A stretch of 64,000 nucleotides of DNA from Myxococcota bacterium (GTDB taxonomy: Bacteria > Myxococcota_A > UBA796 > JAJRTE01), in assembly GCA_024278455.1 (NCBI GenBank), contig JAJRTE010000218.1, positions 1 to 64,000 on the forward strand, written 5' to 3'. This document shows positions 10,603 through 21,279 of this stretch, in pieces; the first letter of the stretch is position 1; every line of letters begins with the position of its first letter. A program made the position numbers and the translations under genes. The notes under the pieces are model-generated. The model was not told where the DNA came from and ran no database searches. It was given only the letters and a program-made list of their open reading frames with translations.

Positions 10603-12405
10603 TCAGGGCGAGAGTTCGTACCAGTCGAAATCCGCCAGGGAGTAGGTGGCCAGGTCCCCGTCCCACGCCTGGCGGATGGCGAAGACTCCGATTCGGCCGA
10701 CCGGCCCCGTGTTGCTCTTGGTGCCGTTCTGCGTCCAACTATCGCTCTCGGACGCCTTGAACCATCCCGTGTAGTCGTCGCCCCGCTTCTCCACCTTCAG
10801 GAACACCTCCGGTTCGCTGTATCGGACATAGTCTCCCACCACATGGACCACGCTCCCGCCTCCGGGCGGATAGTAGGATCGCTCGGCAACACGCCAGCAG
10901 TCGGTGTCGTCGCCATCGGCGAAGCAGATCAAGATGCCCGCCCCCTGGTAGTTCTGGGTGGGGTCGAAACGCAGTCTCACCGACACCGTCCAGTCACCCG
11001 CCGGAGCCGTGTGGAGCACACGTGGGGCGTCGTAGTTGGTCGTGTCGAAGTAGTCAGAACCCCCGTTCAACGGTGACGCCACCAGGGTGAGGACGCCTTC
11101 GCCGGAATCCTGCCACACCACCGAGTCCGGGTTCGGTGAGATGATCTCCCAACACGGATCGAGCGCCTGGGTGTCGAACTCATCCAGGAACCAGCTCTCG
11201 AAGTGGTCGCCGGTTCCGTCGCAGTCGTTGTCCAGGCCGTCGCAGGATTCCCGGGCACCGGGATAGGCAAGAGGTTCTTCGTCGTCGCAGTCCCCGTATT
11301 TGAGTGCATAGCCTTCAGGTGCCGCACAGTCCTCGACAGCCTCCCCGGCCCCGTATCCATCCACGTCACTGTCCAGGTAGTAGCTCGAAACCGGCAACCC
11401 TTCGTCCACCTGGCCGTCGCAGTCGTCGTCCTGGTGGTTGCACGTCTCGAGCGCTCCCGGGTGCACTTCTTGGTCCCCGTCGTCGCAGTCGCCGCCCACC
11501 TCGGCGTACCCTTCGGGCGCCTCGCACGCGCCGGCGGTTTCAGCGTCGACCCCGTATCCATCGCCGTCGGCGTCCAGGTAGAAGGTCGCCGTGACCCCCT
11601 CGTCCACGGCACCGTCGCAATCGTTGTCCAGACCGTCGCAGGCCTCGTCGGCGCCCGGATTGATGGTGGGATCGGTGTCGTCGCAGTCTTCGGCGACCGC
11701 CGCGTATCCTGGCGGAGGATCGCAGTCCAGCGTGGTGGACGCTTCGGTACCGTACCCGTCGCCGTCCGCATCGGCATAGAAGAGCACCTGGACATCCTCG
11801 TCCACATCCACGTCGCAATCATTGTCCAACCCGTCGCACAACTCCGGTGCGCCCGGGTAGACCGCTGCGTCGCCGTCGTCGCAATCCTCGAGCACGGAGT
11901 AGCCGTCACCATCCTGGTCAGGGAACGGCGTGGCCGTCGATGATGGAGGATAGGTGGGCGTACCGCCACCCCCGGGCGTCGCCGTGGCAACGATGGCGGG
12001 CGTCGATGTCGCGTATTCTTGCGGTGTCGGCGTTACCGACACCGGGAGCGTCGGTGTGGGCTCCCGCACCGGCGTGGGTGTCGGCTCCGCCCGTGGTGTT
12101 GGTGTGGGCTCCCGCACCGGCGTGGGTGTCGGCTCCGCCTGCGGTGTCGGTGTGGGTTCTCGCACCGGCGTCGGACTCGTCTCCACGACAGGGGTTGGCG
12201 CCGGCGTCGCCGCGCCCGGCGTGGGCGTCCGGGCTGGCCAGAGGGTCGGCGTCGGCCCGGGCGCTTCGCTCGGCGAAGGCGAAACGGGGGCGGGCGAGGA
12301 CCGTCCCGACGTCTGGTCATCGTCATCGCCCGAACAGCCTCCGGCCCACGCTGTCAAGCAAATCCCCAGGAGAATACCAACTGAAGCATTGGATCGAATC
12401 GACAT
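10603..12405 (-). CDS. Lipoprotein with Pro/Thr repeat linker, MopE-type metal-binding repeats and a beta-sandwich domain
   Basis: ATG 12405 is preceded by GGGAGG (8-nt spacing). The 600-residue product begins with a signal peptide ending in the lipobox AGGC (Cys about residue 24). A low-complexity linker of repeated EPTPTPVR/EPTPTPRA units follows. Next are five or more tandem units of the form DGDGYG, DCDDxDP, NPGADEACDGLDNDCDGxVDE. These are the putative metal-binding motifs named after MopE and are calcium/copper-ligand-like. The last 200 residues (FLDEFDTQALDPCWEI to DFDWYELSP) look like a DUF1349/concanavalin-like beta sandwich, which often binds glycans. It is probably surface displayed. 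It has no partner gene; the SGNH gene ends convergently 43 bp away. Confidence 0.8.
   Translation of the reverse strand: MSIRSNASVGILLGICLTAWAGGCSGDDDDQTSGRSSPAPVSPSPSEAPGPTPTLWPARTPTPGAATPAPTPVVETSPTPVREPTPTPQAEPTPTPVREPTPTPRAEPTPTPVREPTPTLPVSVTPTPQEYATSTPAIVATATPGGGGTPTYPPSSTATPFPDQDGDGYSVLEDCDDGDAAVYPGAPELCDGLDNDCDVDVDEDVQVLFYADADGDGYGTEASTTLDCDPPPGYAAVAEDCDDTDPTINPGADEACDGLDNDCDGAVDEGVTATFYLDADGDGYGVDAETAGACEAPEGYAEVGGDCDDGDQEVHPGALETCNHQDDDCDGQVDEGLPVSSYYLDSDVDGYGAGEAVEDCAAPEGYALKYGDCDDEEPLAYPGARESCDGLDNDCDGTGDHFESWFLDEFDTQALDPCWEIISPNPDSVVWQDSGEGVLTLVASPLNGGSDYFDTTNYDAPRVLHTAPAGDWTVSVRLRFDPTQNYQGAGILICFADGDDTDCWRVAERSYYPPGGGSVVHVVGDYVRYSEPEVFLKVEKRGDDYTGWFKASESDSWTQNGTKSNTGPVGRIGVFAIRQAWDGDLATYSLADFDWYELSP
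12048..12190 (-). repeat. 48-bp tandem repeat encoding a Pro/Thr linker
   Basis: About 2.7 copies of a 48-bp unit encode EPTPTPVREPTPTPRA inside the MopE lipoprotein. It is a spacer between the lipid anchor and the metal-binding repeats, and likely to vary in copy number between strains. Confidence 0.7.
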
Positions 12406-12537
12406 GATATCGGCCTCCCGCACGTTTCCTCCTGCGCAAGAGCCACGCCGCTGCCGAAGCGGGTCTTGCACCGGGAACAAAGGGGTGCAGCATCGTTTTC
12501 GTTAGTGTGCACGCGGCCCACGATGAGCCTACTGCAG

Positions 12538-13472: not shown

Positions 13473-13511
13473 TTGACAGACGGGAGTAATGTTATTAGCT
13501 TTGTCTAACAT
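13473..13511 (+). promoter_or_regulatory. Promoter and DtxR-type operator of the dtxR-feoA fusion gene
   Basis: TTGACA (13473-13478) is followed after 17 bp by TAGCTT (13496-13501). Overlapping that weak -10 is TTAG-CTTTGT-CTAACAT (13495-13511), which matches the element in front of feoB. The candidate start site would fall about on ATG 13510. Metal-loaded DtxR-family protein would be expected to bind here and repress its own gene. Confidence 0.55.
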
Positions 13512-14253
13512 GAGCGCAACCATGCAGGAGACGGTATTGACCGGGGCCCTCGAGGACTACCTCGAGACCGTGTATCAGCTCGTCCAGAGCCGGAAGCTGG
13601 CTCGAGTCAAGGACATCGCGCGGGCCCGGAGTGTTCGTGCGGGGTCCGTGTCGCCAGCCATGCGGCGCCTGGCGGACCTGGGCATGATTCGGTACGTCCA
13701 GCGGGAGTACATCGACCTGACGCCGCTCGGCGAGGAGCACGCTCGGCGTATCCTGGCACGCCACCGGATCCTCACGCGGTTCTTTCGGGAAATCCTCCAG
13801 GTCACGCCCGAGACGGCGGAGGCCGACGCCTGCGCCATGGAACACAGTCTTTCGGCCGAGGGAATGGACCACTTGACACGTCTTTTCGAGTTTCTGCGTG
13901 TTTGTCCCGACGGGCGGAAGTTCCTCTCGTCGTTCCATTCCTGTCCCCGGATCCAGCCCGCGAGCGCCGAATGCATGCTCCATCATCGCGACGGAACGGA
14001 GGCCATCGACGGCAAGGGCGGCACCACGAGGAGCGTCGCCGACCTCAAGCCCGGACAGAAGGGGCGGGTCACGCAGGTATCGGGCGAAGGCCCGATCCGG
14101 CGGCGTCTCCTGGACATGGGGATCCTCCCGGACACGACCATCGAGTTGGAGCGTGTCGCCCCGACCGGCGATCCTATCTGGATCAAGCTCGAGGGGATGC
14201 AACTGTCGTTGCGGCGCAAGGAGGCGAGCCTGGTGTCTGTGCTGGCAGCGTGA
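13510..14253 (+). CDS. DtxR/MntR-family metal-dependent repressor with C-terminal FeoA-like domain
   Basis: The 247-residue product (ATG 13510; ATG 13522 or 13489 also possible) starts with a DtxR winged helix: TGALEDYLETVYQLV, ARVKDIARARSVRAGSVSPAMRRLADLGMI, then YIDLTPLGEEHA. The metal-binding and dimer region follows (ILARHRILTRFFREIL, then EADACAMEHSLSAEGMDHL), supplying the expected Asp/Glu/Cys/His ligands. After about residue 170 comes an SH3-like FeoA domain: LKPGQKGRVTQVSG, RRRLLDMGILPDTTIELE and RKEASLVSVL. The gene precedes feoB by 62 bp and is the only FeoA-like sequence in the cluster, so the fusion may both sense metal and assist FeoB (inference). Predicted regulon: itself and feoB through the shared operator. 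No Shine-Dalgarno is visible, so leaderless translation is possible. Confidence 0.9.
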   Translation: MSATMQETVLTGALEDYLETVYQLVQSRKLARVKDIARARSVRAGSVSPAMRRLADLGMIRYVQREYIDLTPLGEEHARRILARHRILTRFFREILQVTPETAEADACAMEHSLSAEGMDHLTRLFEFLRVCPDGRKFLSSFHSCPRIQPASAECMLHHRDGTEAIDGKGGTTRSVADLKPGQKGRVTQVSGEGPIRRRLLDMGILPDTTIELERVAPTGDPIWIKLEGMQLSLRRKEASLVSVLAA

Positions 14254-14272
14254 ATCTTGGGGCGCTCTTTTT

Positions 14273-14301
14273 TTGTCGTGATTGTTAGAGTCGACTAACA
14301 T
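14273..14301 (+). promoter_or_regulatory. feoB promoter with overlapping DtxR-type operator
   Basis: TTGTCG (14273-14278), a 17-bp spacer and TAACAT (14296-14301) form a plausible promoter. The palindrome TGTTAG-AGTCGA-CTAACA (14283-14300) covers the spacer and -10 and shares TTAG-N6-CTAACAT with the site at 13495-13511. Binding here would block polymerase. Confidence 0.6.
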
Positions 14302-14315
14302 ACCGAGCAATACCT

Positions 14316-16538
14316 ATGGGAAACGGATCACACCATGCGCAGGAGGTCACGGTCGCCCTTGCGGGCAACCCCAACGCGGGCAAGACGTCGCTGTTCAACG
14401 CCCTGACCGGCGCGAGGCAGCACGTAGGGAACTACCCGGGTGTCACGGTCGAACGCCGCACGGGGCACTACGAGTTCGAGGGCCGGCGCTACAACGTTGT
14501 CGATTTGCCGGGCACCTACAGCCTCACGTCCTACTCCCCGGAAGAACGTATCGCGCAGTTGGAGCTACTCGAGCACGCTCCCGAAGTCGTGGTGGCGGTG
14601 GTGGACGAGACTGCCCTCAAGCGGAGCCTCGTCCTGGTGGCGCAGCTCATGCACCTGACCGGTCGGATGGTCCTGTGCCTCAACATGGCGGACGAGGCAC
14701 GGATGTCCGGGCAGAAGCTCGACATCGCCCTGCTCGAGCGGTTGTTGGGCATGCCCGTCGTGGAAACGGTGGGGCACAAGCAGCAGGGCATGGATGGCCT
14801 GGTGCGAGCCATTGCTCGAGCGGCGTCGCAAGAGCGGGTGGGGAACCGCCTGGTGCTCGGGGAACGGCTCGATGCAGCCCTGCGCCGAGTCCGTGAGGCG
14901 GTGGCCGGTGCCGGTATCCCCCCGGAACGGGCGGGATGGGACGCGGTCAAGCTCCTCGAGAACGACCCTGGCTACACCAGCCGCTACCGGGAGAAGGGTG
15001 GAGCGTTCGCGGCGGCCGTCGCTGCGGCGGCTCGCGAGCGGAAGCGGATCGAGGCGGCCACCGGGATGGACATCACTTTGTTCATGGCCGAGTGCTACTT
15101 TGGCTTCGTGGATGGCCTGCTGCGTGAAGTGGTCGTGCGCCAGCCCCGCGAGGATGCTCGAGCCGTGTCCGACCGTATCGATGACATTCTCGTCAACCGG
15201 GTGCTGGGCATCCCCTTCTTCCTTGCGGTCATGTACCTCGTGTTCTGGACCACGTTCACGGTCGGGGAGTACCCGATGGACTGGCTCGAGGCGGGGTTCG
15301 ACCTCCTGGGCAAAGCGGTAGGCGGGCTGTGGGCTCCTGGCTCGGACGCGATGCTCAGGTCGCTGATCGTGGATGGCGTCATCGGCGGGGTTGGCGGTGT
15401 GCTCGTGTTCTTGCCCAACATCGTGCTGCTGTTCTTGTCCCTGACGTTTCTCGAGGACACGGGCTACATGGCCAGGGCTGCGTTCCTGGTTGACCGGGTG
15501 ATGCACCGGTTCGGCCTGCACGGTCGGAGTTTCATCCCTCTCGTGACCGGGTTCGGCTGTTCGATTCCCGGTATCATGGCCACGCGCACGCTCGAGAACG
15601 AACGTGACCGTTTGACAACCATGCTGGTATTGCCGTTGATGTCCTGCGGAGCGCGCCTTCCCATCTGGATGTTGCTCATTCCGGCCTTCTTTCCCCCGGC
15701 GTGGCGCGCGCCGGCGCTGTGGCTCATCTACGCGGTGGGCATCGTGCTGGCCCTGTTGTTCGCCCTGCTGCTGCGGCGGTCGATTCTCAAGGGGGAGGAG
15801 GCGCCGTTCGTGATGGAGTTACCGCCCTACCGCCTTCCCACGCTTCGCTCGGTCATCGGGCGTGCGGTCCAGCGCGCGTGGATGTACCTGAAGAAGGCCG
15901 GGACGCTGATCCTCGCGATTTCGGTAGTGATGTGGTTTCTGCTCAACACGCCGGCAGACGTGTTCTCGGGCAAGACGGAAGCTGCTGCACTGGACCGGGC
16001 GCCGGATAGTTCTTCAGTCAACGAGCCGGGGCGAAGCACCCTCACGTCAGCCGAGCCGGGAGAGATCGTCGGCGGCGGCCAGCCTGCTGCTTCGGTGCCT
16101 GGCGGAGCCACCAGCGACGATGCTGAGCGAGCCCGTGCGGCGGAGGAGATGCGGCGGTCCCTGGCCGGACGCATCGGGCGCCTGATGGAGCCTGTCATCG
16201 CGCCGTTGGGGTTCGACTGGAAGCTCGGCACGGCGATGCTGGGCGCCTTTGCCGCCAAGGAGGGCTTCGTGGCCCAGTTGGGGGTCATCTACGCGATGGG
16301 CGAGGTGGACGAGACCTCGGACCAACTCCGGGATGCCCTCCACAGAGACTACTCGAGGCTGACCGCGGTATCGCTCATGCTGTTCTTGCTGATCGCCACC
16401 CCGTGCATGGCCACGGTGGCGGTCATGCGGCGCGAGACCGGGGGCTGGAAGTGGCCGCTGGTCCAGTTCTTCGGGCTCACCGCCACGGGCTACCTGGTGT
16501 CGCTCGTGGTCTACCAGGTGGGACGCACGCTGTTCTGA
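14316..16538 (+). CDS. feoB: Ferrous iron transporter FeoB
   Basis: A 740-residue inner-membrane protein that imports Fe(II), driven by its GTPase domain. The N-terminal G domain shows G1 AGNPNAGKTS (residues 16-25), the G2 Thr region NYPGVTVERRTG, G3 DLPGTYSL (about 68-75) and G4 NMAD (about 124-127). A helical guanine-dissociation-inhibitor-like spacer with LLENDPGY follows. The membrane part has the conserved GFGCSIPG and MSCGARLP with Cys residues of the translocation path, and ends with AMLGAFAAKEGFVAQLGVIYAMG and TPCMATVAVMRRETGGWKW. Length is normal for the family. An 80-residue acidic/Ala-rich loop after the third membrane pair (about residues 545-620) is variable in the family. The gene follows the DtxR-FeoA gene and has its own operator. 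There is no strong ribosome-binding site before ATG 14316. Confidence 0.97.
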   Translation: MGNGSHHAQEVTVALAGNPNAGKTSLFNALTGARQHVGNYPGVTVERRTGHYEFEGRRYNVVDLPGTYSLTSYSPEERIAQLELLEHAPEVVVAVVDETALKRSLVLVAQLMHLTGRMVLCLNMADEARMSGQKLDIALLERLLGMPVVETVGHKQQGMDGLVRAIARAASQERVGNRLVLGERLDAALRRVREAVAGAGIPPERAGWDAVKLLENDPGYTSRYREKGGAFAAAVAAAARERKRIEAATGMDITLFMAECYFGFVDGLLREVVVRQPREDARAVSDRIDDILVNRVLGIPFFLAVMYLVFWTTFTVGEYPMDWLEAGFDLLGKAVGGLWAPGSDAMLRSLIVDGVIGGVGGVLVFLPNIVLLFLSLTFLEDTGYMARAAFLVDRVMHRFGLHGRSFIPLVTGFGCSIPGIMATRTLENERDRLTTMLVLPLMSCGARLPIWMLLIPAFFPPAWRAPALWLIYAVGIVLALLFALLLRRSILKGEEAPFVMELPPYRLPTLRSVIGRAVQRAWMYLKKAGTLILAISVVMWFLLNTPADVFSGKTEAAALDRAPDSSSVNEPGRSTLTSAEPGEIVGGGQPAASVPGGATSDDAERARAAEEMRRSLAGRIGRLMEPVIAPLGFDWKLGTAMLGAFAAKEGFVAQLGVIYAMGEVDETSDQLRDALHRDYSRLTAVSLMLFLLIATPCMATVAVMRRETGGWKWPLVQFFGLTATGYLVSLVVYQVGRTLF

Positions 16539-16583
16539 CGGGATCCCCGCCAGCACTCGAGCAGCATGCTCGAGGAGGATGAC

Positions 16584-16784
16584 ATGGACTACATCGTGAC
16601 GGGCGTGATCGTGCTCGGTGCCCTGGCGCTGGTGACATGGCGCCTCGTGCGCTTCATCAGGGCGCTGGTATCGCCAGGCGCATCGGGGCCGGCCTGTGGG
16701 GGCGGGTGTTCGTCGTGCCCGGCACAAGGCGAGATGGGTACCGACGATGACACCAGCGCACCACCAGATTCGTGGCAAGTCTGA
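16584..16784 (+). CDS. FeoB-associated Cys-rich membrane protein
   Basis: ATG 16584 has the site GAGGAGGA. The 66-residue product starts MDYIVTGVIVLGALALVTW, a single membrane helix, and has a Cys cluster ACGGGCSSCPAQ at about residues 37-48. Small proteins of this type follow feoB in many bacteria and are annotated as FeoB-associated Cys-rich membrane proteins (FeoC-like in position, not in fold). They are thought to aid FeoB assembly or metal handling, but their biochemistry is not settled. The gene starts 45 bp after feoB and is surely in its operon. Confidence 0.8.
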   Translation: MDYIVTGVIVLGALALVTWRLVRFIRALVSPGASGPACGGGCSSCPAQGEMGTDDDTSAPPDSWQV

Positions 16785-16803: not shown

Positions 16804-17619
16804 ATGATGTTGAAACGCATACGCTCTGAAAGGACGCGGGAACGACGTGTCGGCCGGCTTTCGGGCATGGTTGCGTCGTTCGTGGCTCTGTGCACCGCGC
16901 TGCCGGTCTTCGCGGCGGACACGATAGAACCCTTCGGGCCTGGCCTGAGCGATCTCGAGGCCTACGTGCACATCCTGGAGAATCCGGGGGGGGGAGAGAC
17001 GGGGCGGGCCGTTCTGGCAGAGACGATCTCCGGCTACGGGTTCACCCCCAGGTTGTCTGGCGCGTTCGGCGTGTCCTGGGAGGGCGTTCCGGGCCAGTCA
17101 TCGAGCACGACTGCGCTCGCCGGGACCTTGTTCGGCACCCTGGTCGACACGCCCCACGTGGACCTGGATGCCTACCTCGGGGCCGGTGCGCCCCTGGATG
17201 GTTCCCGAACGATCGAGGCGGTTCCCGGGCTGGAAATCAACCTGGACTTCGGGCCGGACCAGGCGGTGGCCGGAGCCTATCTCCGGGTCGAATGGCCGCT
17301 GGGCGTGCCGGTCTCGAGCGGCGACGCGCGGACCGCCAGGCCGGGGCGGATTCCCGCCGAAGTGACTTGCCTCGTCGGCGCCTACGTGACGCTGGGAGAG
17401 GGGCACCAGCTCCTGGTGGAATTGCCGGCCGGCGTCAGCCTCGAGCATGGCATCTTGCGAGCGGACGCCATTCCGGGCGAAATCGTGGTGGGCTACAATG
17501 CGCGGGTCGCCGGGGCGGTGGAGTTGATCACACAGGTCGCCGTGGAGTGGGCTTCGGTGGAAACGCAGGGACTCGCGGCATCGTCCGGCGTGATGTTGGG
17601 CGTAATCGTCACGCGCTGA
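16804..17619 (+). CDS. Exported protein of unknown function at the end of the feo operon
   Basis: ATG 16804 follows AAGGGGGC and lies 19 bp after the Cys-rich gene, so it is part of the feo transcript. The 271-residue product starts with a basic stretch and the signal peptide MVASFVALCTALPVFA, cut before ADTIEPFGPG. The mature part alternates Gly/Ala/Val-rich segments of 8-12 residues (EINLDFGPDQAVAGAYLRVEW, then AEVTCLVGAYVTLGEG, QLLVELPAGVSLEHG). Its final residues are GVMLGVIVTR. This looks like beta-strands and could be an outer-membrane or periplasmic beta protein. I do not recognise the family. The context suggests a role in ferrous iron entry through the outer membrane (inference only). 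Confidence 0.65.
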   Translation: MMLKRIRSERTRERRVGRLSGMVASFVALCTALPVFAADTIEPFGPGLSDLEAYVHILENPGGGETGRAVLAETISGYGFTPRLSGAFGVSWEGVPGQSSSTTALAGTLFGTLVDTPHVDLDAYLGAGAPLDGSRTIEAVPGLEINLDFGPDQAVAGAYLRVEWPLGVPVSSGDARTARPGRIPAEVTCLVGAYVTLGEGHQLLVELPAGVSLEHGILRADAIPGEIVVGYNARVAGAVELITQVAVEWASVETQGLAASSGVMLGVIVTR

Positions 17620-17687: not shown

Positions 17688-20483
17688 TCACCACGCTCCA
17701 CAAGGCCCGCCATAGGCCCCCATGTCGCTTCGAGACCCGTCCGGATCCTCGATGTCTGGATTTCCGGCATCGATGAGAGAAGAATTTGGGGAGAGGGAGA
17801 GGTCCCAGTCGGCCGGCGGAGCCGATTGGTCGTAGGAGACGAACGCCGGGTCGGCCGACACATTTCCTTCTTCGCCAAGCGGATAGCTCCACCCGCTGCC
17901 GTCGTCGGGGACGTTGCCGTGCAGATCGCAGTAGGTAATGGCGGGCGCCTGCCCGTTGTTGGACACGGAGACGCCCCCGCCACCCACTTCCGCACCGTTG
18001 AAGGCAATGACGACATTGTCCATGCGACTCTGGGAGGAGGTGTCGAGGTAGACACCGCCGCCATAAGTGCCCGCGGTGTTGCCGGCGATAGTGACGTTCG
18101 TCATGTCGATCGCCGAGGTGCTGGACACGGAGATGCCTCCACCGGTGGTGCCGGCCTGGTTTCCGGAGATGATCACCGCCTCGAACACCGGGCTGGAGCT
18201 GTTTGTGACGGCGATGCCTCCCGCTGTCCGAGGAGATACGTTCCCGGAGACGGTCACGTTGGTGAACGACGGGGAAGAGGAGGCGAGGCGCACGCCGCCA
18301 CCGAATGCGCCGTGGGAAGTATTTCCCGAGATCGTGACGAAGTGGAAGGTCGGGTTCGAGTTGCTGGCAGTGACGCCGCAGTAGTTGGTCGTGGCCTCGT
18401 TGTCCGAAATGTCCACTTCCTCGAAAAGGGCGTTCGACCCGCTCCAGAGATTCACGCCAGCATAGTTGGCCGCCGTGTTCCTCGAGACAGTGACGCGCCG
18501 GAACGTGGGCGCGGAACTGGTGAGGCTGATTCCCGACTGGGAGACGACCGCGGTGTTGCCGGTGATGTCCACATCGACGAACGTGGCGCTCGAGGTGTGC
18601 AGGTAGACACCGCCGTAGTTCTGGGTGGCGAGATTGTCCGCCACGATGACCCGGGTGAGCGTGGCGTTGGAGGCGACCAGTTCCAGGCCGCTCGTATAGT
18701 CCGCCGTGTTGTAGGACACATCGAGATCCTCGAGCAGCGGGGAGGAGTTCGAGAGGTAGAGGCCGCCGCCGTGGCCCGACGGGGCGCTGTTGAGCGTGAA
18801 CGAGCCCCCGGCGATACGGGCCGCGTCGCCGACGTCGATGAGATAGGCGCCGCCACCGTCGGTCCCGGCTTCGTTGGCAGTGACCTCGATGCCGTCGATG
18901 ACCGGCGAGCAGCTATCGAGGTACAGCCCTCCTCCCTTGCCGGCAGCCCCGTTCTGGAGCACGCGGAGGTCGGCGACCAGGGGCGCCGCCCGGTCCCCCA
19001 TGTAGACGCCGCCGCCGTCCCGGTCGGCACGGTTGCTGCTCACGACCAGATCGGCGAGAGTCGGAGAAGTGGCCTGCAAGAACAGCCCCCCGCCCTGGTA
19101 GGCATGGCCGTTGCGTATCGTGATGCCCTCGAGAACCGCCCCCGCGCCTTCGCCCGACTCGAGCGTGACGACCGGGCCCTCTCCGCCGCCATCGACGATG
19201 GTCCGCTCGGGGCCCTCCACGCCGACGACCGATACCTCCTTGCCCTTGAAGTCGATGGTTTCCATGTAGGTGCCGGGCTGGACACAAATCACGTCGCCGG
19301 ACACCGCGTCGTCGATGGCCTCCTGGATACTGGCCCGGTACCAGGTCGTATCGCCGTCTCCGCTGTCCGCCGACACCAGCCATTCCGTCGTTCCGTCGCA
19401 GTCCGAATCGGTGCCATCGCAAAACACGTCGCCCGCCTCCGGATAGACCTGCGGGTCGGTGTCGTCGCAATCGCCCCCGCAGGCGGACGTGTGACCGTCT
19501 CCATCGATGTCGGCGCGTTCATCTGTGGCCGGGTCGCAGTCGTCGTCGACGCCACCGTTGCACAGCTCGAGCGCCCCGGGGTACCGGCCGGGGTCGGTAT
19601 CGTCGCAGTCCCCGTCGCAGCTCGAGAACCCGTCGCCATCGGCGTCCGCGGCAGACAGAGCCGGGTCGGTGTCGTCGCAATCGGGCGCTGCACCTTCGTC
19701 CGGGCAGGTCGCGCTGCCGTCCCCGTCGTCGTCTCGAGGATTGCGTGCCGGGTCGGTGTCGTCACAGTCGCCGTCACAGGTCGACGAGCCGTCGCCATCG
19801 AGGTCATCCCGGTTCAGCGCCGGGTCGCTGTCGTCGCAGTCCGCGGGGGCCGATCCGATGGCGCAGGCGACAGCGCCGTCCAGGTCCGCGTCGAACCCCT
19901 CGTCCACGGATCCGTCACAGTCGTCGTCGATACCGTTGCACCGCTCCACCGCGCCCGGATTGGCTGATGCGTGCGCGTCATCGCAATCGTTGCGACGCGC
20001 AGCCGTGTACGGCGAGACGGCATCGCACAGGCAGGACCAGTCGTCGTCCCTGCCGTACCCATCACCATCCTGGTCCAGGTAGAAGACCGCGCAGCCGATG
20101 GAACCCGGGGGGTCTGCGCTGCCGTCGCAATCGTCGTCGACGCCGGAACACCGCTCCGGCGCCCCGGGATGGACCGCGGCGTCTGCATCGTTGCAGTCGT
20201 TCTGGCAGGCGAGGTATCCGTCGAGATCCGTGTCGGACTCGCCCTCCCCCAGTTCCTGGTCACAGTTGTCATCCTGCCCGTTGCAGATCTCGTCCGCGCC
20301 GGGATAGACCGAGGCATCGAAATCGTCGCAATCGCCATACGCGCTACCGTCCGCGCAGGGTACGCGCTCACAGAAGCCGTCGCCGTCGTTGTCGAGGTTG
20401 AGGGGGTGGTCCGGTCCGCACCCCGGCGCACTCGCCAAGGCGGCCAGGAGAAGCGTGGTGCACAGCGCGGGTCTGTTCGACAT
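17688..20483 (-). CDS. Lipoprotein with MopE-type metal-binding repeats and right-handed beta-helix
   Basis: ATG 20483 has AAGGAGG 11 nt upstream, and the signal peptide ends in the lipobox ASAPGC (931 residues). Residues about 25-330 are tandem DxDxDG, DCDDxDP, NPGA units, at least ten of them, with regular Cys and Asp (putative metal-binding motifs). Residues about 345-900 form a parallel beta-helix: an N-terminal pectate-lyase-like entry (ASIQEAIDDAVSGDVICVQPGTY) then repeated GNTAGxxGGGVYLDxSS and NNRADRDGGGVYM coils, as in PbH1-repeat adhesins and polysaccharide-binding proteins. The last motif SDMGAYGGPCGAW is common at such C-termini. It is presumably displayed outside the cell as an adhesin or glycan-binding protein; no catalytic residues are evident. 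Confidence 0.85.
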   Translation of the reverse strand: MSNRPALCTTLLLAALASAPGCGPDHPLNLDNDGDGFCERVPCADGSAYGDCDDFDASVYPGADEICNGQDDNCDQELGEGESDTDLDGYLACQNDCNDADAAVHPGAPERCSGVDDDCDGSADPPGSIGCAVFYLDQDGDGYGRDDDWSCLCDAVSPYTAARRNDCDDAHASANPGAVERCNGIDDDCDGSVDEGFDADLDGAVACAIGSAPADCDDSDPALNRDDLDGDGSSTCDGDCDDTDPARNPRDDDGDGSATCPDEGAAPDCDDTDPALSAADADGDGFSSCDGDCDDTDPGRYPGALELCNGGVDDDCDPATDERADIDGDGHTSACGGDCDDTDPQVYPEAGDVFCDGTDSDCDGTTEWLVSADSGDGDTTWYRASIQEAIDDAVSGDVICVQPGTYMETIDFKGKEVSVVGVEGPERTIVDGGGEGPVVTLESGEGAGAVLEGITIRNGHAYQGGGLFLQATSPTLADLVVSSNRADRDGGGVYMGDRAAPLVADLRVLQNGAAGKGGGLYLDSCSPVIDGIEVTANEAGTDGGGAYLIDVGDAARIAGGSFTLNSAPSGHGGGLYLSNSSPLLEDLDVSYNTADYTSGLELVASNATLTRVIVADNLATQNYGGVYLHTSSATFVDVDITGNTAVVSQSGISLTSSAPTFRRVTVSRNTAANYAGVNLWSGSNALFEEVDISDNEATTNYCGVTASNSNPTFHFVTISGNTSHGAFGGGVRLASSSPSFTNVTVSGNVSPRTAGGIAVTNSSSPVFEAVIISGNQAGTTGGGISVSSTSAIDMTNVTIAGNTAGTYGGGVYLDTSSQSRMDNVVIAFNGAEVGGGGVSVSNNGQAPAITYCDLHGNVPDDGSGWSYPLGEEGNVSADPAFVSYDQSAPPADWDLSLSPNSSLIDAGNPDIEDPDGSRSDMGAYGGPCGAW

Positions 20484-20646
20484 CTGCCTTTCGTCCTCCT
20501 TTCGGCCGTGTCCCGATATCGTGTCACAACGACGGCGCTCCCGCAACTGAATCCAGCCGCGGCATGCACTTTTCTGCACCATGCAAGCAACGTGATTTCG
20601 TGGCGTACGATACGTGATGGGATTCCAATGGAGCAAGCGGGGGGGG

Positions 20647-21279
20647 CTACTGCGCCTGGGGCTGGGTTTCCTTGTCCAGGGCATCATCGAGTTCTGCAAA
20701 CGCCTGTTTGGCCCGGGCCTCGAGCGCGGCCCGGACCTCTTCGTTGAGCGCGTCGAGCTTGCCGACCGCATCCTTGAACGAGGCCAGGTCGATTGCGATA
20801 AGCGAGTAGAACGTGCCGCTGGAACTGATCCACGTGTCGATGACCTCGGTGCCGGTCAGGCTCACGTCGGTCACCTGCCTCGAAATGTCTTCGACCCACT
20901 GGTCATCCGACGCCGCTTCGCCAAACTGACCGCCGCCGGTCGCCGTGGATTGGTAGTCGCGCAGCATGGCCTGGACCCGGGTGTTCAGGGTCCGGGCAAG
21001 CGCGGTCCGGGCGCGCCCCTCTGCCGTCGTCCGGGCCAATCCGATGTTGTTGGTGCCGCCCATGGAGCCGACACCGCAAAGCTTCTCAGTGGAGTCTTGC
21101 CCGCTCCAGAAAGCGCGACAACCTCGAGTTACCCAGTCAGGCGCGCCGGCGTACTCCGCGGCAATGGCGTTCCCCGCGGTCTCGGTCTCCTGGTGCCGAA
21201 CACAGCCCGATAGCCAGACTCCGCCAGCCAGGACAACGACAAGGCCGAAAGATGACAAAACAGAACAGGACGATTTCAT
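20647..21279 (-). CDS. LPP20-family lipoprotein
   Basis: ATG 21279 follows GAGGTGGTG. The 210-residue product begins MKSSCSVLSSFGLVVVLAGGVWLSGC, a lipoprotein signal. The mature part has the LPP20-like core PDWVTRGCRAFWSG, GVGSMGGTNNIGLARTTAEGRARTALA and FYSLIAIDLASFK, a fold used by Helicobacter LPP20 and Vibrio FlgP-type envelope proteins. A Glu/Ala-rich C-terminal helix ends the protein. It is transcribed away from a FlgO-like gene, so the two may share a regulatory region. No flagellar genes are in the window, so a flagellar role cannot be claimed. Confidence 0.75.
   Translation of the reverse strand: MKSSCSVLSSFGLVVVLAGGVWLSGCVRHQETETAGNAIAAEYAGAPDWVTRGCRAFWSGQDSTEKLCGVGSMGGTNNIGLARTTAEGRARTALARTLNTRVQAMLRDYQSTATGGGQFGEAASDDQWVEDISRQVTDVSLTGTEVIDTWISSSGTFYSLIAIDLASFKDAVGKLDALNEEVRAALEARAKQAFAELDDALDKETQPQAQ

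Follow-up and report, generated by a model that had tools for sequence, protein, structure and literature searches.

Candidate half-box operators of a DtxR-FeoA repressor at its own gene and at feoB in a Myxococcota bacterium

Genes and promoters of the feo locus

The window analysed here, a stretch of 64,000 nucleotides from a Myxococcota bacterium (contig JAJRTE010000218.1, assembly GCA_024278455.1), contains a Feo locus, with a FeoB that carries both the GTPase and Gate domains and an adjacent FeoA domain that is fused to the regulator. The features of the locus are as follows.

13473..13478 (+), TTGACA, -35-like hexamer of the dtxR-feoA promoter (from sequence; its spacing to the site recurs in relatives)
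13493..13510 (+), operator 1, dtxR-feoA side, 18-bp palindrome TATTAG-CTTTGT-CTAACA (exact match and phylogenetic footprint; spans the putative -10)
13526..13530 (+), AGGAG, Shine-Dalgarno-like, 6 bp before TTG 13537 (putative, from sequence)
13537..14253 (+), DtxR-FeoA repressor gene, 238 aa from TTG (Pfam PF01325, PF02742 and PF04023; structure model)
13654..13656 (+), codon of Pro49 (numbered from ATG 13510) in the recognition helix, equivalent to IdeR Gln43 and, by alignment, MntR Lys41 (alignments)
14283..14300 (+), operator 2, feoB side, 18-bp palindrome TGTTAG-AGTCGA-CTAACA (exact match and recurrence at other feoB genes)
14316..16538 (+), feoB, ferrous iron transporter, 740 aa (TIGR00437 at 568 bits, PF02421, PF07670, PF07664)
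16566..16784 (+), small FeoB-associated Cys-rich membrane protein (PF12669, 24.5 bits, just under the cut-off of 27)
16804..17619 (+), secreted protein of unknown family downstream of feoB (no Pfam match; starts ...AADTIEPFGPGLSDLEAYV)

The repressor gene probably starts at TTG 13537, because AGGAG lies 6 bp before it. Alternative in-frame ATG codons occur at 13489, 13510 and 13522, and the readings from 13489 and 13510 have no ribosome site and overlap the operator. The locus is flanked by genes for two long proteins, 10603-12480 (-) and 17688-20771 (-), with repeated D-x-D-x-D / CDGxDNDCDG-type, calcium-binding-like repeats. A J-domain protein (PF00226; 12650-13285, -) with a Cys-rich C-terminal stretch is divergent from dtxR-feoA and starts about 200 bp from operator 1.

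The original prediction was that TTAG-N6-CTAACAT occurs in front of both dtxR-feoA and feoB, and the motif is indeed exact at 13495-13511 and 14285-14301, with no other exact match in the window and 5 matches when up to 2 mismatches are allowed (1.7 expected). Operator 1 follows a perfect TTGACA (13473-13478) after a 16-bp gap to TTAG, and the -10 paired with that hexamer at a 17-bp spacer, TAGCTT (13496-13501), matches at only 3 of 6 positions and lies inside the operator. The best hexamer pair for feoB is TTGTCG (14273-14278) and TAACAT (14296-14301). The further claim that each site overlaps a -10 thus holds in that the putative -10 hexamers lie at both sites, but these are weak and a strict sigma-70 scan called neither the dtxR-feoA nor the feoB promoter. 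A TTGACA-like hexamer separated from the site by 15-16 bp recurs at 19 related loci, and the operator therefore covers the -10 region, as operators do at IdeR-repressed promoters (PMC10317159).

The repressor and its metal site

The DtxR domains PF01325 and PF02742 score 38.5 and 67.8 bits against cut-offs of 26 and 27, respectively, and with its metal ligands the protein belongs to the DtxR/MntR family of metalloregulators and is predicted to bind DNA in a metal-dependent manner. The original prediction called the repressor FeoA-fused; DtxR-family proteins usually have an SH3-like/FeoA domain as their third, C-terminal domain, and the fusion does not set this protein apart. In an AlphaFold2 model (mean pLDDT 89) the first 135 residues match MntR (TM-score up to 0.92 when normalised by MntR), and the full chain resembles IdeR apart from the position of the C-terminal domain. 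The top Foldseek match is the three-domain DtxR protein IdeR of Thermoplasma acidophilum (4o5v), which is only 22% identical and differs in the placement of that domain. Bacillus subtilis MntR (1on1, 9c4c; PMC11275975) shares the fold of the first 135 residues and single 18-bp dimer sites, but it lacks a FeoA domain, its Glu99 corresponds to Cys108 of the window protein, and its residue at the aligned helix position is Lys41. The linker (residues 149-159 from TTG 13537) is disordered in the model. Within the wider linker, residues 132-159 from ATG 13510, also modelled as disordered, most close orthologues carry a recurrent Cys/His cluster (F-H-x-C ... C-x3-C/H), possibly an extra metal or Fe-S site.

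Metal ligands D16, E19, H85, C108, E111 and H112 are conserved, and C108, E111, H112 and H85 are invariant in A1. The site is a hybrid of those of DtxR (Met, Cys, Glu, His) and MntR (Asp, Glu, Glu, His). Relative to the iron-specific DtxR/IdeR branch (sulphur ligands Met10 and Cys102), the Cys is kept as C108 and D16 stands at the Met10 position; relative to the manganese-specific MntR branch (Asp8, Glu99), the Asp is kept and Cys replaces Glu99.

Half-box architecture and distribution of the operator

The 19-bp DtxR/IdeR iron box, TTAGGTTAGSCTAACCTAA (PMC8464063, PMC10317159), can be read as two TTAG-N6-CTAA sites 5 bp apart, TTAGGTTAGCCTAACCTAA is two overlapping TTAG-N6-CTAA sites, and one IdeR dimer binds the half box TTAGGNNNNCCTAA (PMC8464063). 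Both window sites have exactly the TTAG-N6-CTAA spacing of that half box, without its inner G/C on both sides (TTAGC...TCTAA and TTAGA...ACTAA), the inner G being the complement of C1 of CCTAA. The four CCTAA repeats of the classical two-dimer box are absent, as each site has two half-repeats and its flanks do not extend them. Read from their sequence, the window sites are not foreign to DtxR but half boxes in which the inner G is relaxed. The original view that they differ from the classical DtxR box is only partly right, as they have a single dimer site and no inner G but retain the same TTAG-N6-CTAA half. The window and the DtxR/IdeR system have in common this geometry, the location over the -10, the protein family and the three-domain layout; they differ in that the window has one dimer site per promoter, keeps the outer G-C (GTTAG...CTAAC) and not the inner G, and encodes Pro in place of Gln at recognition residue 43. 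Our search found no paper naming this operator or the residue-43 covariation described below; subscription papers on RegPrecise-type DtxR motifs lay outside the search, and an earlier description is possible.

TTAG-N6-CTAA is found exactly 5 times in the 7.03-Mb genome, where its reversed control pattern occurs 43 times, and GTTAG-N6-CTAAC is found twice. Two of the five are the dtxR-feoA and feoB operators, 790 bp apart. The other three were rejected as regulon members, having no recognised metal gene nearby: one is in apparent rRNA-type sequence (contig C67, judged by eye from spurious ORFs), one beside a PIN-toxin/sulfatase-modifying-type pair (C123) and one near a short ORF of unknown function (C168). 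The enrichment at metal genes that was proposed as a check is thus seen locally and does not extend to a wider metal regulon in this genome. Sites with one mismatch in 14 related genomes are mostly intragenic or beside unrelated genes, with clear exceptions at dtxR-feoA genes, at feoB (G001, contig C61), at a second FeoB-like gene (G001, C106) and at a secreted protein of the window family (G109, C222). We consider the family of the secreted protein at 16804-17619 a likely new member of the Feo regulon. The genome also has a second pair on contig C188 (L011, L140), in which a FeoB-like protein precedes a divergent DtxR-FeoA-like protein (31% identity) whose domains Pfam did not recognise; no operator with up to 2 mismatches was found within 7.5 kb of this pair. 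Fur-family (PF01475) and Nramp (PF01566) genes were not found in the genome (94% complete), and DtxR proteins may therefore handle iron control alone.

A homologue is present in 23 of 377 genomes of the phylum, and 13 of these with upstream DNA were used for a phylogenetic footprint that enumerated all gapped palindromes of three-base words with gaps of 0-16 (1088 patterns). TAG-N6-CTA ranked first, occurring at 9 of the 13 close orthologues (no pattern exceeded 5 in 60 shuffled sets), and at the other four a site that departs from the 18-mer by 1-3 mismatches lies 28-48 bp upstream. The motif is absent upstream of distant homologues in the same phylum (L025-L031, L033). A wider set comprised 76 loci from Deltaproteobacteria, Fermentibacteria, Acidobacteria, Elusimicrobia, Chloroflexi, Spirochaetes, Firmicutes and several archaea; here exact TTAG-N6-CTAA within 180 bp upstream was the top four-base gapped palindrome, found at 26 loci (coding control at most 5 for any word). 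Over all loci with enough upstream DNA the exact site is present at 72 of 179 (mean 0.8 and maximum 4 in shuffles). At most loci feoB adjoins the regulator gene; of 119 feoB matches, 19 have their own exact site within 150 bp of the start. In the close group, own sites occur at some feoB genes that are separate, divergent or further from dtxR (L010, L012, L017 and the window), and none was found where feoB lies closely downstream of the regulator (L016, L018, L021, L022).

Proposed regulation and the recognition residue

The assignment of these sites to this repressor, as originally proposed, is well supported by the footprint at orthologues in many phyla, by promoter placement and by the separate feoB copies. 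We predict that the two sites are conserved operators through which an ordinary three-domain DtxR repressor at a feo locus controls its own gene and feoB. From the computed sites, conservation, promoter placement, protein domains, metal ligands and residue-base covariation we infer binding, metal identity and repression as follows. A DtxR-FeoA dimer carrying a divalent metal, with Fe(II) the most likely, would bind one 18-bp palindrome (TGTTAG-N6-CTAACA) across its own -10 region and another across the feoB promoter, and would shut off both; when metal is scarce the dimer would release and the Feo iron importer would be made. We give metal-dependent repression of dtxR-feoA and feoB by a dimer on half-box palindromes a probability of about 0.85. 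It would make the operator readable from the genome for a large and little-studied group of DtxR-FeoA repressors found beside feoB in many phyla, and also in this genome, in which the search found no Fur gene.

The sensed metal is the part of this scheme with a serious rival. The same operator and repressor could respond to Mn(II), either alone or with Fe(II) as an antagonist, with FeoB moving Mn or both metals. The window residues D16, C108, E111 and H112 form the same hybrid site as D19, C108, E111 and H112 of Porphyromonas gingivalis PgMntR, a protein that binds DNA more strongly with Mn(II), loses stability with Fe(II) and controls the manganese transporter FeoB2 (PMC4805248), and the closest PDB sequence to the DtxR part is B. 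subtilis MntR. PgMntR is likewise a DtxR protein with C-terminal FeoA that regulates a FeoB-type transporter; it has two FeoA domains against one in the window protein and its target carries Mn, and no operator motif for it was found (PMC4805248). Against Mn(II), the window FeoB scores 568 bits with the ferrous iron transporter model, in DtxR/IdeR a Cys at this ligand position favours Fe(II) (PMC10317159), and the genome has no recognised Fur for the iron role. Fe(II) is most likely the sensed metal, and we rate the Mn(II) version unlikely, at a level that still deserves weight. Far less probable is that the palindromes belong to another regulator, either the C188 paralogue, which is after all a second DtxR-FeoA homologue in the genome, or an unrelated factor: across phyla the motif goes with the gene for this repressor, and the inner base varies with the recognition helix of this protein, whereas the paralogue has neither a nearby site nor domains that Pfam recognises. 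A+T-rich promoters and a short motif with 8 fixed core bases could in principle yield a chance likeness between two A+T-rich promoter regions, yet this is refuted by the phylogenetic footprint, the genome and multi-phylum counts also being far above their shuffled or reversed controls.

An alignment anchored on the IdeR Q43A entry (7b25) places window Pro49 and the Glu of L224 at the Gln43 position. In IdeR crystal structures the one direct hydrogen bond to a base comes from Gln43 and is made at C1 (PMC8464063), and in the MntR-DNA structure the Lys41 position lies close to base pairs 4-5 (PMC11275975). In a discovery set the inner G was present on both sides at 11 of 12 loci with Glu or Gln at residue 49 and at 1 of 14 with Pro, Ala or Ser. 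The prediction that Glu/Gln goes with inner G was written before validation loci from three phyla were fetched, and it held (10/10 for Glu/Gln, 1/20 for Ala, Asp, Asn, Ser or Val; p = 3.7e-7), with Gly intermediate (6/13). Over all loci the counts are 21 of 22 with Glu/Gln against 2 of 34 with other residues except Gly. A family-wide switch at IdeR position 43, in which Glu or Gln selects TTAGG/CCTAA and Pro, Ala, Ser or Asn selects TTAGN with the outer G-C favoured, seems to us somewhat the better reading of these data. In the scheme proposed above for this locus, the window sites lack the inner G because their repressor has Pro at the Gln43 position.

Shared ancestry alone, with no contact between residue and base, could produce the same association. 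Sixteen of the 22 Glu/Gln loci are in one clade, L039 and L152 appear to be two samples of one species, and in a scan of the validation set alone residue 49 had the highest raw mutual information but only the fourth z-score. The Q43A change, moreover, leaves the binding of IdeR to its consensus at wild-type level in vitro (PMC8464063). On the other side, outside the large clade 5 of 6 Glu/Gln loci keep the inner G against 2 of 34 (p=0.0002; 9 of 49 with Gly among the others, p=0.003), of 122 protein positions residue 49 predicts the inner G best (71 loci) and still ranks first with the clade removed, and trait simulations on a tree built without the recognition helix never reached the observed phi of 0.72 (0 of 1000, for either trait); Gln43 also touches this very base in crystals. 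We therefore regard ancestry alone as doubtful. Since Q43A IdeR is normal in vitro, the covariation may reflect discrimination between sites and not affinity for the consensus, for which residue 43 need not be essential. The residue-base switch, if true, would be a specificity switch used by evolution although Q43A does not weaken IdeR binding in vitro. Tying operator sequence to one recognition-helix residue makes the published dispute over direct versus indirect readout in the DtxR family testable by simple residue and base swaps, and would let regulons be predicted from protein sequence.

Two further observations concern the relatives. Homologues of the secreted protein at 16804-17619 (28-30% identity) adjoin dtxR-feoA in L014 and L032, and the homologue in G109 (L138; site at 6447-6464 of contig C222) has its own TTGACA-N14-TGTTAAACGCATCTAACA promoter; a plasmid search for the secreted protein gave no match. 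Tandem half boxes occur at fixed spacings in some relatives: 19 bp in L044, L058, L070 and L074, 17 bp in L050, L051, L055, L190 and L214, 15 bp in L224 and 14 bp in L228. MntR dimers occupy 18-bp sites 1 bp apart on the mneP promoter, the same spacing as the 19-bp tandems (PMC11275975).
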